A DNA stretch of 26,030 bases from an uncultured Actinomycetes bacterium. GTDB taxonomy: Bacteria; Actinomycetota; Thermoleophilia; Solirubrobacterales; Thermoleophilaceae. Where the stretch lies: assembly GCA_946481495.1 (NCBI GenBank), contig CAMLNW010000005.1, forward strand, positions 1 to 26,030, written 5' to 3'. A program made the position numbers and the translations under genes. The notes below the pieces were generated by a model. The model saw only the letters and a list, made by a program, of their open reading frames with translations. It did not search any database and had not been told where the DNA came from. This document shows, one piece after another, positions 1,848 to 26,030 of the stretch; the first letter of the stretch is position 1; every line of letters starts with the position of its first letter.

Positions 1848-3049
1848 CTACCGACGCGGCGCGAGGCGGAATATCCCGCCCGCAAGCGAGACCACGTAGA
1901 CGCGGCCGCGGGCGTCCTCGCCGAACGAAACGACCTGCGGAACGCTCGGCCCGAGCGCGCGGTCGCCGCGGGCGCCGCCGGCTGTCAGCCGTGCCACGCG
2001 CAGGCCGGAGTCGCAAAGGTCGCCGTAGACGTAGCTGCCACGCAGCGCGCCATAGCCGCGCGGTCGCAGCACATAGCCACCGGTGATCGAGCAGCTGCCC
2101 TGGTCGTGGGACCGCTCGATGACCGGCGCCACGGCGCCGGACGCGCTGCCCGAGCGGTAACGACGGTTGCCCTCGAAGACCGACCAGCCGAAGTTGGCTC
2201 CCCCGCGCGGACCGCGCGACGCCGAGGCCGCCGGCAGGAAGTCGATCTCCTCGACCTCGTCCTGGCCGACGTCGCCGATCGTCAGGTCGCCGGTCGCGCG
2301 GTCGAACGAGAAGCGGTACGGGTTGCGCAGGCCGTAGGCGAAGATCTCGCCGCGAGCACCGGCGCGGCCGACGAAGGGATACCGCGCGGGACGCGGTAGC
2401 CGCCGCCCGGCTTCGGGTCGATCCGAATCAGCTTCCCGAGCAGCTCGCCGAGATCCTGCGCGTTGCGATCGGGATCGCCGCCGCCACCGCCGTCGCCGAA
2501 GCCGGCATAGAGCATCCCGTCAGGGCCGAACTGGAGCTGGCCGCCCTTGTGGTTGAAGCGCGGGTGCGGGACGCGCATGACCAGACGGCCCGACCCCTTG
2601 CGCGTCGCGTTGCCGTTGGCCGTCGCGCGGAACTGGAAGATCGTCAGCGCGCCATCGTTGGCGACGTAGTAGACGAAGTAACGGCGGTTGGTCTTGTATC
2701 CGGGATGGAACGCCATCGACAGCAGCCCGCTCTCGCCACCGGTCTCGACGCGCGACGCGATGTCGAGGAAGGTCGAGCGGCGACCGTTGCGCAGCTGCAC
2801 GATCCGGCCCTCGCGCTCGGTGACAAAGCGGCGCTTGCGATCGCCGGGAGGCGCAGCGAGATAGGTCGGCTGGTCGAACGTCCCGACGCGCAGCAGGCGG
2901 ACGCCCTTGGCCGCGGCGCCCACCGGTGGAGCGGACCTCCCGGAGCTGGACGCGGCCTGGCCGCCCGAGCCATCGCCGGACGACGCGCAAGCGGTGACCG
3001 CGAAGGTCAGCGAGCAGCAGAGGGTCGCGATGGCGACGGCGCGCTTCAC
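1848..3049 (-). pseudogene. PQQ-type glucose/sorbosone dehydrogenase lipoprotein, frameshifted
   Basis: GTG at 3049 opens a type II signal peptide (basic start, hydrophobic core, lipobox VTAC with Cys21), so the product would be a lipoprotein outside the membrane. Then come hallmarks of the glucose/sorbosone dehydrogenase beta-propeller family: EREGRIVQL, GLLSMAFHPGY, FNHKGGQLQFGPDG (catalytic His) and DPDRNAQDLGELLGKLIRID. After GGGYRVP the frame is lost near 2381-2388. The next frame continues without a gap as YPFVGRAGARGEIFAYGLRN, DLTIGDVGQDEVEEI, NFGWSVFEG and a normal C-terminus to 1848. Restoring one base gives a complete 400-residue protein. No other damage is visible, so a sequencing error is at least as likely as a true pseudogene. 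The frame can also be read upstream of 3049, but that stretch is antisense to the next gene and is not protein-like. Confidence 0.85.
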
Positions 3050-3098
3050 GCGGCGCAGTATGGCGATGGCTGAGGCAACTCTGGGTAGGTACCCCTCG

Positions 3099-4013
3099 AT
3101 GCGCGTACTCGTAACCGGCGCGACCGGCTTCGTCGGGGGCCGCCTTGCCCACGCGCTCACCGGCGAGCAGGGGATCAAGGTGCGGGCGCTGGTGCGCGAT
3201 CGCGCCCGCGCCGGCGCGCTCGAGCGCGCCGGGATCGACCTGCACGAGGGCGACGTCACGCACGCCGACTCGCTTGAGGGCGCCGGCGACGGGGTCGACG
3301 TCGCCTACTACCTCGTTCACGGAATGGGACGCGGTGGGGACGGCGACTTCGCCGAGCGCGAGCGCGAAGCGGCGCGCAACTTCGCCCGGATGGCGCTCGT
3401 CGAGGACGTCGAGCGAGTGATCTACCTCGGTGGGCTCGGCGACCAGCCCGGCTCGAAGCACCTGCGCAGCCGCCACGACACCGCACTGACGCTGAAGCGA
3501 GAGGGGCCGCCGGTCACCTACTGCCGCGCCAGCATGGTCGTCGGTGCGCGCAGCGAGGGGTACCGCACGCTGCGCTACCTCGTCGAGCGGCTGCCGGCGA
3601 TGATCGCCCCGGCCTGGCTGAAGACGCCGACTCAGCCGATCGGGATCGACGACGCCGTCGCCTACCTCGCCGCGGCGCCACGCATCCAAGCGACGACCGA
3701 TCGCGAGATCCAGATCGGAGGGCCCGACGTGCTCGCCTACGGCGAGATGCTCGACCGGATGGCGATCGCACTCGGTCGCCGCCCACGGCCGAAGATCCCG
3801 GTCCCGCTGTTGACGCCGTGGCTGTCATCGCACTGGATCGGCCTCGTGACGCCAGTCGACGCCGGCGTCGCGCGCCCGCTCGTCGAGGGCCTGTCGACCG
3901 AGACCGTCGTCACCGACCCGTCGGGCGCCGCCCTCTTCGACATCGCCCCGATCGGCTTCGACGAGACCCTGCGTCGTGCGCTCGCGGAGGACCCGGAGGC
4001 CGGCGCGCGATAG
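3099..4013 (+). CDS. NAD(P)-binding SDR-like protein (atypical/NmrA-like)
   Basis: A 304-residue protein starting MRVLVTGATGFVGGRLAHAL, the classical Rossmann TGxxGxxG nucleotide-binding motif of extended or atypical short-chain dehydrogenases. The segments HEGDVTHADSLEGA and VERVIYLGGLGD match the second and fourth strands. RASMVVGARSEGY and the later QIGGPDVLAYGEML match NAD(P)H-binding epimerase-like proteins often listed as 'NAD(P)H-binding protein'. No clear YxxxK pair is seen, so it may be a redox sensor or a non-classical enzyme. The ATG at 3099 is chosen because the Rossmann strand starts there; the longer reading is antisense to the lipoprotein gene. GGGTAG ends 10 bases before the start, but no good GNNT partner is present. 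tRNA-Pro starts 14 bases after the stop. Substrate unknown. Confidence 0.85.
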   Translation: MRVLVTGATGFVGGRLAHALTGEQGIKVRALVRDRARAGALERAGIDLHEGDVTHADSLEGAGDGVDVAYYLVHGMGRGGDGDFAEREREAARNFARMALVEDVERVIYLGGLGDQPGSKHLRSRHDTALTLKREGPPVTYCRASMVVGARSEGYRTLRYLVERLPAMIAPAWLKTPTQPIGIDDAVAYLAAAPRIQATTDREIQIGGPDVLAYGEMLDRMAIALGRRPRPKIPVPLLTPWLSSHWIGLVTPVDAGVARPLVEGLSTETVVTDPSGAALFDIAPIGFDETLRRALAEDPEAGAR

Positions 4014-5992: not shown

Positions 5993-7042
5993 ATGGCCCG
6001 GCTGCGGCGAGTCGACTGCGGCAACAGCGGATTCCGCCGCCGCCGGCACGGTCGCGGCTTCGTCTATCTCGACCATGACGGCGAGCGGATCGGAGATCCC
6101 GACACGCTCGAGCGGATCAAGGCGCTGGCGATTCCGCCGGCTTGGGAGGACGTTTGGATCTGCCCGTTGCCGAACGGTCATATCCAGGCGACAGGGGTCG
6201 ACGCGGCCGGACGCAAGCAGTACCGCTACCACGACGACTGGCGCGTCCGCCGCGATGCCGACAAGTTCGACTCGATGGTCCGCTTTGCCGAGGAGCTTCC
6301 CACGGTGCGCGAGCAGGTAGAACGCGACCTGACGCTCACGGAGATGCCGCGCGAGCGTGCGCTCGCCTGCGCGGTGCGGCTGCTCGACCGCGGCTCGTTC
6401 CGGATCGGTTCTGAGGACTATGCCGAGGAGAACGAGACCTACGGGTTGGCAACGATGCGCAAGCAGCACGTGACTGTCACCGACGATGTTGTCGTCTTCG
6501 ACTACCCCGCGAAAGGCGGACAGGCGCGACGCCAGCGAGTGATCGACGAACAGGCCGCGAAGACGGTCGACCTGCTGTTGCGCCGACGTGGAGGCGGCGA
6601 CGAGTTGCTCGCCTACAAGGACGGCCGCCGTTGGCACGATGTTCGCTCGGCGGACATCAACGCCTACCTCAAGCAAGCGAGCGGCGACGACTTCTCGGCT
6701 AAGGACTTCCGTACCTGGAACGCGACGGTGCTGGCGGCGATCGCGCTCGCGGTCTCCGGACCGGTTGCCGGCGCCTCACGGACCGCCCGCAAACGGGCGA
6801 TCCGGCGGGCAGTCGAGGAGGTCGCCCACCACCTCGGCAACACGCCTGCCGTCTGTCGCGCCTCGTACATCGACCCGCGCGTCTTCGACCGCTTCGACGG
6901 CGGCCTGACGATCGGCGGTGTGCTGCCCGAGCTCGCCGCCGATGCCGAGGGCTGGCCAGCCGTCCAGCGTGTGGTCGAGGAGGCCGTGCTCGACCTGATC
7001 GCCGCCGACGAGTCCTCCGACGCGGTCGAGCGCGCCGCTTAG
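5993..7042 (+). CDS. DNA topoisomerase IB (poxvirus-like type)
   Basis: A 349-residue tyrosine topoisomerase of the bacterial/poxviral IB family, which relaxes supercoils by forming a 3'-phosphotyrosine link. The N-terminal DNA-binding part holds GFVYLDHDGERI and IPPAWEDVWICP. The catalytic domain has RIGSEDYAEENETYGLATMR (about residues 137-156), KDFRTWNATV with its conserved Arg, and CRASYIDPRVFDRF, where Tyr292 is the nucleophile. The ATG at 5993 is chosen because family similarity begins there; the frame stays open upstream but antisense to the neighbouring gene. Chromosomal topoisomerase IB is an accessory enzyme in actinobacteria, and the SigB-like promoter suggests stress-induced expression. 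The gene converges with the DJ-1/PfpI gene. Confidence 0.93.
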   Translation: MARLRRVDCGNSGFRRRRHGRGFVYLDHDGERIGDPDTLERIKALAIPPAWEDVWICPLPNGHIQATGVDAAGRKQYRYHDDWRVRRDADKFDSMVRFAEELPTVREQVERDLTLTEMPRERALACAVRLLDRGSFRIGSEDYAEENETYGLATMRKQHVTVTDDVVVFDYPAKGGQARRQRVIDEQAAKTVDLLLRRRGGGDELLAYKDGRRWHDVRSADINAYLKQASGDDFSAKDFRTWNATVLAAIALAVSGPVAGASRTARKRAIRRAVEEVAHHLGNTPAVCRASYIDPRVFDRFDGGLTIGGVLPELAADAEGWPAVQRVVEEAVLDLIAADESSDAVERAA

Positions 7043-24804: not shown

Positions 24805-25608
24805 TCAGCGACCGCTCGTTGCCTCGGCTCCAACGGGGCTCATGGCGCCGTCATCCAGGTGCCAGGGGGTGAGTATGCGTGGCCCGTCGGCCGTTATCGC
24901 GACGGTGTGCTCGAAGTGCGCCGCAAGCGACCCATCCTCCGAGTAGACCGACCAGTTGTCGGGCGCTAGGCGGACCCCGGGTCCGCCGACGTTGACCATC
25001 GGCTCGATCGCCAGCGCCATGCCCTCCTCGAGCAGCGGGCCGCTGCCGGGAGTGCCGAAGTTCGGGATCTGCGGGTCCTCGTGCATCTCGCGACCGACGC
25101 CGTGCCCGACCAGCGAACGGATGATCGAGTAGCCGTCGGACTCGACGCGACGCTGGATCGCGGCCGAGACGTCGCCGAGGCGGTTGCCGGCGACACAGTG
25201 CTCGATGCCGTCGAAGAGCGAGCCGCGCGTCGATTCGAGCAGGCCGGCGGCGACGTCGCCGACCGGACCGATCGGCAGTGTCACCGCCGCGTCGGAGATC
25301 CAGCCGTCGAGCTCGACGCCGATGTCGACCGACAGCACGTCGCCACGCACGAGCTCGTAGTCCCCGGGGATGCCGTGGACGACCATCGAGTTCGGCGACG
25401 CGCAGATCGAACCGGGAAAACCACGGTAGCCCTTGAAGCAAGGCGTCCCACCCTGCGAGCGGATGAACCGCTCCGCCGCCTCGTCGAGCTCCTCGGTCGT
25501 GACGCCGGCACGGGCCTTGGAGCGCAGCAGCTTGTGACAGCGCGCGAGAACCTGCCCGGAGGCTGCGATCTTCTCGATCTCCTCGGGCGTCTTCTTGATG
25601 ATCGCCAT
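24805..25608 (-). CDS. map: Methionine aminopeptidase, type I
   Basis: A 267-residue enzyme that removes the initiator methionine from nascent proteins using two metal ions. The five ligands are visible: Asp in [13 protein letters not shown], Asp in [11 protein letters not shown], His in [20 protein letters not shown], Glu in [12 protein letters not shown] and Glu in [31 protein letters not shown] is the substrate pocket region. It has no N-terminal zinc-finger or SH3-binding extension. The ATG at 25608 is two bases after the adk stop, so the genes are co-transcribed in the usual adk-map order. Confidence 0.97.
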
Positions 25609-25610
25609 CG

Positions 25611-25918
25611 CTAGAGCTGTTCCTCGAGGCGCAGCGTCGCGAGCGTCGCGCGGATGTGCGCGTGCACCTCGTCGGGCGAGCGGCTGCCGTCGAAGCGACG
25701 CAGCAATCCCTTGCCCTCGTAGTGCTCGACAAGCGGCTCGGTCTGGTCGTGGAAGACGTCGAGCCGGTGCTTGATCGTCTCCTCGCGGTCATCGTCGCGC
25801 TGAATCAGCGGCGAGCCGTCCTGATCGCAGAAGCCGGGATTCTTCGGCGGGTCGAAGTCGACGTGGTACGGATGCCCGTTCTTCTCGCAGACGCGGCGAC
25901 CGGACAGCCGCTGCCCGA
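25611..25918 (-). CDS. adk: Adenylate kinase, C-terminal part only (joined to unrelated DNA)
   Basis: The last ~100 residues of adenylate kinase are clear: RLSGRRVCEKNGHPYHVDFD, PPKNPGFCDQDGSPLIQRDD and DREETIKHRLDVFHDQTEPL, followed by the C-terminal helix. These are the LID domain, with Cys residues hinting at a zinc-type LID, and the end of the core. ADP-forming phosphotransfer would need the missing P-loop GxPGxGK and NMP-binding domain. Upstream of about 25918 the minus-strand frame stays open to an ATG at 26021, but its residues do not match adenylate kinase (no DxVIxIxVxxExLxxR stretch before RLSGRR). The other strand encodes an FG-GAP repeat there. The true 5' part of adk is therefore absent from this sequence. 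Confidence 0.85.
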
Positions 25919-25919
25919 T

Positions 25920-26030
25920 GTGACGGTTCAGGCGACGATTGCCGGCGGCGGCTTGATCGCCAACAATCCGTTCGGCGCGGGCTGGAGCATCAAAGCAGCC
26001 GGCGATTTCAACGGCGACCACAACAGTGAC
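25920..26030 (+). CDS. FG-GAP/VCBS repeat protein fragment (open at right edge)
   Basis: The + strand frame from 25920 to the last base gives VTVQATIAGGGLIANNPFGA then GWSIKAAGDFNGDHNSD. The DFNGDxNSD end is a calcium-binding FG-GAP/VCBS motif (Asp, Asn, Asp, Asn, Asp at alternate positions) and GxGW.IKAAGDFNGD is the usual lead-in; such repeats occur in large secreted or surface proteins. Base composition is lower in G/C than the neighbours (41 A/T in 111 bases) and it uses AAA, AAT and TTG codons rare elsewhere in the window. It begins inside adk with no start codon context. It looks foreign to this locus. Confidence 0.55.
   Translation, partial: MTVQATIAGGGLIANNPFGAGWSIKAAGDFNGDHNSD

Follow-up and report, generated by a model that had tools for sequence, protein, structure and literature searches.

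Adenylate kinase (Adk), the product of adk, is essential in bacteria. The adk copy considered here lies at one end of a stretch of 26,030 nucleotides (the window), and within the codons of the Adk lid it meets an unrelated coding sequence on the opposite strand. Contigs that mix genomes can arise from shared k-mers, as described in PMC7299287. Judged from its sequence, the window end is very probably a chimera, presumably of DNA from two organisms. It would then be an artefact and no feature of a real genome, and should be cut at 25910.

The minus strand at the window end carries rpmJ, map, and then the C-terminal part of adk, with its stop at 25611. The map gene (24805 to 25608, minus strand) is complete and encodes a type I methionyl aminopeptidase of 267 amino acids (PF00557, E = 5.1e-44; TIGR00500, 270.9 bits against a cut-off of 171.35). 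The adk remnant (25611 to 25910, minus strand) is followed by a join stretch (25911 to 25943) in which 21 to 33 bases, up to 25931 or 25943, belong to neither Adk nor an FG-GAP unit when compared with a repeat profile and with relatives. From 25944 to the window end, the plus strand encodes GGGLIANNPFGAGWSIKAAGDFNGDHNSD, a single FG-GAP/VCBS-type repeat unit that is still open at the last base. Only 120 bases (25911 to 26030) separate the join from the window end, and position 26030 is likely the end of the contig, given the odd length and the open genes at both ends. Elsewhere in the window, a glucose/sorbosone dehydrogenase (GSDH) gene on the minus strand (1848 to 3259) looks frame-broken: 2282 to 3259 corresponds to GSDH positions 2 to 155 of 332, and the remainder of the gene may continue in a different frame as far as 1848, although no Pfam family was matched by 1848 to 2132 on its own. 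The plus strand also carries an ordinary gene for a bacterial DNA topoisomerase IB (5999 to 7042; PF01028, PF21338).

The identity of the truncated gene was clear from family models. ADK_lid (PF05191) matched with E = 5.8e-15 and 55.3 bits, above the Pfam cut-off of 26.6, the Pfam ADK family matched the remnant with E = 2.8e-6, and positions 121 to 211 of the 215 in the best NCBIfam adenylate kinase model were covered. Of about 224 Adk residues, the C-terminal 99 with the lid are present; the ~125 N-terminal residues are absent together with the P-loop (GPPGAGKGT in relatives), the homology having stopped at 25910. Of 7997 candidates scored in a search of a protein collection, 7982 were Adk relatives at E ≤ 1e-10, and we examined the 120 that were listed. 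The top four were intact proteins of 221 to 224 amino acids, 94 to 96% identical to the window over 97 to 100% of the 105-residue query, and P0006 matched the first 40 residues of the window's lid stretch letter for letter. Among the 120 listed relatives, 115 were at least 180 amino acids long, and 113 carried DGF[LIV]LDGFPR within the 45 residues preceding the lid motif; the other seven comprised three short proteins (112 to 127 amino acids), three with variants of the segment, and P0113, which the motif pattern missed. An FG-GAP domain was listed for none of the 120. An organism was named for three of them (P0049, P0061, and P0068), a Thermoleophilaceae bacterium each time, and the adk side of the join appears to be Thermoleophilia-like.

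Close relatives read ..DDEEVVR-RLSGRR, whereas the window reads ..NRHIGQ-RLSGRR. Because EEVVR in the relatives gives way to RHIGQ upstream of RLSGRR in the window, we place the end of Adk homology at 25910, in the first R of RLSGRR; the next minus-strand codons, 25911 to 25913 and 25914 to 25916, encode Q and G where the closest relatives have R and V. A frameshift in adk was rejected after the other minus-strand frames of 25911 to 25943 had been compared by eye, and all 15 listed rows of a blastx search with the plus strand were in frame 1.

We then compared the locus with its counterparts in relatives. A map search gave 537 confirmed loci, of which 80 were kept; 16 of these (L001 to L015 and L026) were used for gene order and the other 64 were left out. 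The titles of the 16 were mostly Thermoleophilaceae, Solirubrobacterales, and Solirubrobacteraceae, all of which we take to belong to the class Thermoleophilia; three were titled Bifidobacterium breve, L003 Actinomycetota, and L006 Actinomycetes. The adk-map DNA of the three records titled Bifidobacterium breve (L010, L011, and L012) resembles by eye that of the Solirubrobacteraceae record L014, so these titles are probably wrong. The initial annotation had described the order adk-map-rpmJ as highly conserved, and this was borne out: in 15 of the 16 loci, adk was the gene immediately upstream of map, complete and with the P-loop segment in frame in all 15. Thirteen of the 16 had rpmJ no more than 200 bases from where the map match ended; in L007 it was about 1.4 kb away, and at L006 and L015 it was not found. 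The Adk lid family had exactly one match in each of 11 related genomes that contain such loci.

The related genome G011 has adk and map on separate contigs (L085 and L003, respectively), and both genes are whole. On L003 (403 to 2200), an FkbM-type methyltransferase gene precedes map-rpmJ-rpsM on the opposite strand; on L085 (1 to 6000), the complete adk is flanked downstream by a family-2 glycosyltransferase gene, and secY lies upstream of it with other sequence in between. Genes of the polysaccharide type may have entered the secY-adk-map region of G011, or its contigs may be misjoined. That adk and map are apart there, with such genes alongside, suggests that the neighbourhood can be broken, and the 21 to 33 orphan bases of the window could be end-joining filler, both of which would suit a real rearrangement in which FG-GAP DNA, foreign or from a distant site, entered adk by insertion or recombination within the cell, leaving filler at the join and requiring a second adk for survival. 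We consider such an event very unlikely, as the adk of G011 is whole (224 amino acids), the lid match was single in all 11 related genomes, the FG-GAP domain was absent from the 120 listed Adk relatives, and the join lies so near the window end. Even less credence goes to the specific version in which the junction would be genuine in a Thermoleophilia population, the lid codons being split by an acquired FG-GAP surface-protein gene with ~30 bases of filler and a second adk elsewhere. If the join were real, an essential single-copy gene would have been lost at its native site.

The other side of the join was characterized through its encoded residues. On a 40-residue piece of the tail, which the window end truncates, the Pfam FG-GAP family scored 10.9 bits, under its cut-off of 22.1, and no NCBIfam model matched the tail. 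A homology search with the last 42 residues found five proteins among 13 candidates, and all five contained FG-GAP domains. The best local alignment was with P0001 (80% identity over 30 residues), a metagenomic FG-GAP protein that shares the same terminal DFNGDHNSD. A profile built from 25 units of the five proteins aligned from 25932 (E = 3.8e-17, calculated for a single-sequence search space). The tail matches the units of the family closely and in register, and its first unit is cut by the window end. Homology to FG-GAP units is evident from the GGG at 25944 and begins at 25932 at the earliest. Thus, both boundaries proposed initially had to be moved. The adk match was said to run up to RLSGRR and to stop near 25918; its loss at the lid stood, but its end is at 25910. 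An FG-GAP repeat was indeed present on the plus strand, but it does not start at 25920.

The shortness of the stretch leaves some room for a reading without any join, in which adk would be decayed or error-ridden and the opposite strand would resemble FG-GAP by chance. The identity to P0001 and the profile match exceed chance, however, and adk is intact to 25910, including the 40 residues identical to P0006. We give this reading next to no probability and regard it as refuted, as far as sequence can tell.

The composition of the tail, said from the outset to be lower in G/C and different in codon use, agreed with that description. The G+C content of 25911 to 26030 was 63.3%, against 66.8 to 72.2% in 17 chosen genes of the window. 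The codon score of the tail was matched or undercut by 5 of 484 overlapping 40-codon pieces of the window, and its GC3 of 0.80 was as low in 25 of the 484. These values, obtained on only 40 codons, suggest that the G+C content and codon choice of the tail are atypical for the window.

In order to trace the tail, we searched several collections. Against 399 genomes from the class of G002, the best-scoring match had E = 0.0014 and 42% identity over residues 11 to 41; a few of the weaker listed matches were short but more similar, reaching 68% identity over 22 residues (E = 0.48), and 139 of the 399 genomes gave at least one match at E ≤ 1. No copy of an exact 30-mer of the tail turned up in genome contigs, nor of the wobble pattern of its peptide in viral contigs, and its protein had no match in plasmids at E ≤ 10. 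Its DNA matched five plasmid records over 27 to 40 bases, an SDR oxidoreductase gene with E = 2e-4 and the others with E = 0.3. The 80 map loci gave three matches (E = 5.7 to 6.8). Fold-back of nearby window DNA was rejected, the best match of the tail elsewhere in the window having E = 0.098.

The relatives of the tail were also surveyed. Among the 120 listed FG-GAP relatives, three had a named organism (Nitrospirae, Sphingomonas, and Usitatibacter). The NF038122 metalloprotease domain exceeded its cut-off in three of the five tail relatives (P0002, P0003, and P0005); a search for it found none in 11 related genomes and also none in 14 controls, and is hence uninformative. P0003 had no phage match at 1e-5 and matched 28 plasmid records at 27 to 34% identity, 21 of them actinobacterial (20 Streptomyces and 1 Arthrobacter). 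Given these Streptomyces-rich plasmid matches and the 139 class genomes with some match, FG-GAP proteins in general cannot be called foreign to actinobacteria.

We next examined whether the join stretch belonged to either neighbor. On a larger FG-GAP profile, built from 179 units of 47 of the 121 FG-GAP proteins, the 13 columns of 25905 to 25943 scored -22.9, close to the null mean (-26.3) and far from the family mean (+38.9); 29% of random pieces of the window scored at least this high. A second pattern caught 199 family units, in 198 of which the loop that precedes GGG is four residues long (five in the remaining one); P0004_732, which that pattern missed, diverges in this loop. Since the profile score is near the null and the loop length is conserved, the 21 to 33 bases fit neither of the two families as they are known here. 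Extension of FG-GAP homology back into the adk codons (DAATG, 25890 to 25904) was rejected as well: 3.4% of random pieces scored at least as high, and the score was far below the family mean.

The SDR oxidoreductase gene mentioned above lies on the Paraburkholderia phenoliruptrix plasmid pSYMBR3459 and agrees with 25913 to 25952 at 36 of 40 bases in an alignment that has a single gap. The E value improved to 5e-5 with a 56-base query, and the match begins in the gene's own frame (PDVTVQATIA in the window, LDVTDQASIA in the SDR protein). This would fit an artefact of three pieces joined in series, namely adk, a short stretch of an SDR gene, and the FG-GAP gene. We hold that arrangement to be unlikely, because the match comes from one record (the next best of 78 had E = 0.09, and, for 25905 to 25960, the best 10 of 18 phage records had E of 4 or worse), because G+C-rich coding DNA inflates matches of this sort, and because it spans GGCGGCGGC, which is part of the FG-GAP unit. 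As a match to a single record that reaches into the GGC repeats of that unit, it is a lead only, pointing either to chance or to a third piece.

The initial annotation had put forward a chimeric contig end or misassembly as the simplest reading, and our analysis favors it, in the form of an inter-organism chimera produced during assembly or library preparation. Two homologies, the end of each, and an adk that runs on normally in the examined relatives are observed directly. In its favor we count that the best-scoring class match of the tail is 42% identical as against 80% for the metagenomic FG-GAP protein (the bits of these two alignments come from different programs and are not set against each other), that the adk of relatives is intact, that none of the 120 listed relatives has an FG-GAP domain, that the tail is atypical, and that the foreign stretch runs for 120 bases to the window end. 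Against it, we count that orphan bases are not expected if two conserved coding regions were simply fused, that adk and map are apart in G011, and that FG-GAP proteins are present in actinobacteria. The contig of a Thermoleophilia-type chromosome would have been extended, inside the Adk lid codons, into the gene of an FG-GAP repeat protein whose owner was presumably a different organism. The join would not have formed in the cell: either the assembler would have followed a wrong path where coverage at the contig end was thin, or a chimeric read would be to blame. As no parent DNA was found, either in plasmids or by exact 30-mer in genome contigs, no shared k-mer could be demonstrated. The practical consequence is a quality flag: users of the contig should first drop all sequence after 25910, and annotation should include no broken adk and no FG-GAP gene beside adk.

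Set beside known systems, the locus resembles three of them in part. With the lid-bearing Adk of Thermoleophilia it shares the 99 C-terminal residues, the whole lid, and the adjoining map, but it lacks the ~125 N-terminal residues and the P-loop and is a remnant, an incomplete member of that group. With FG-GAP/VCBS proteins, some of which have an NF038122 N terminus (P0002, P0003, and P0005), it shares GGG..NPFGAGW..AGDFNGD and the 51-residue repeat register, but it differs in that its one unit is truncated and by itself scores under the Pfam cut-off, and in the misfit of the columns before GGG. With the chimeric metagenome contigs treated in PMC7299287, it shares unrelated coding sequences that abut near a sequence end.
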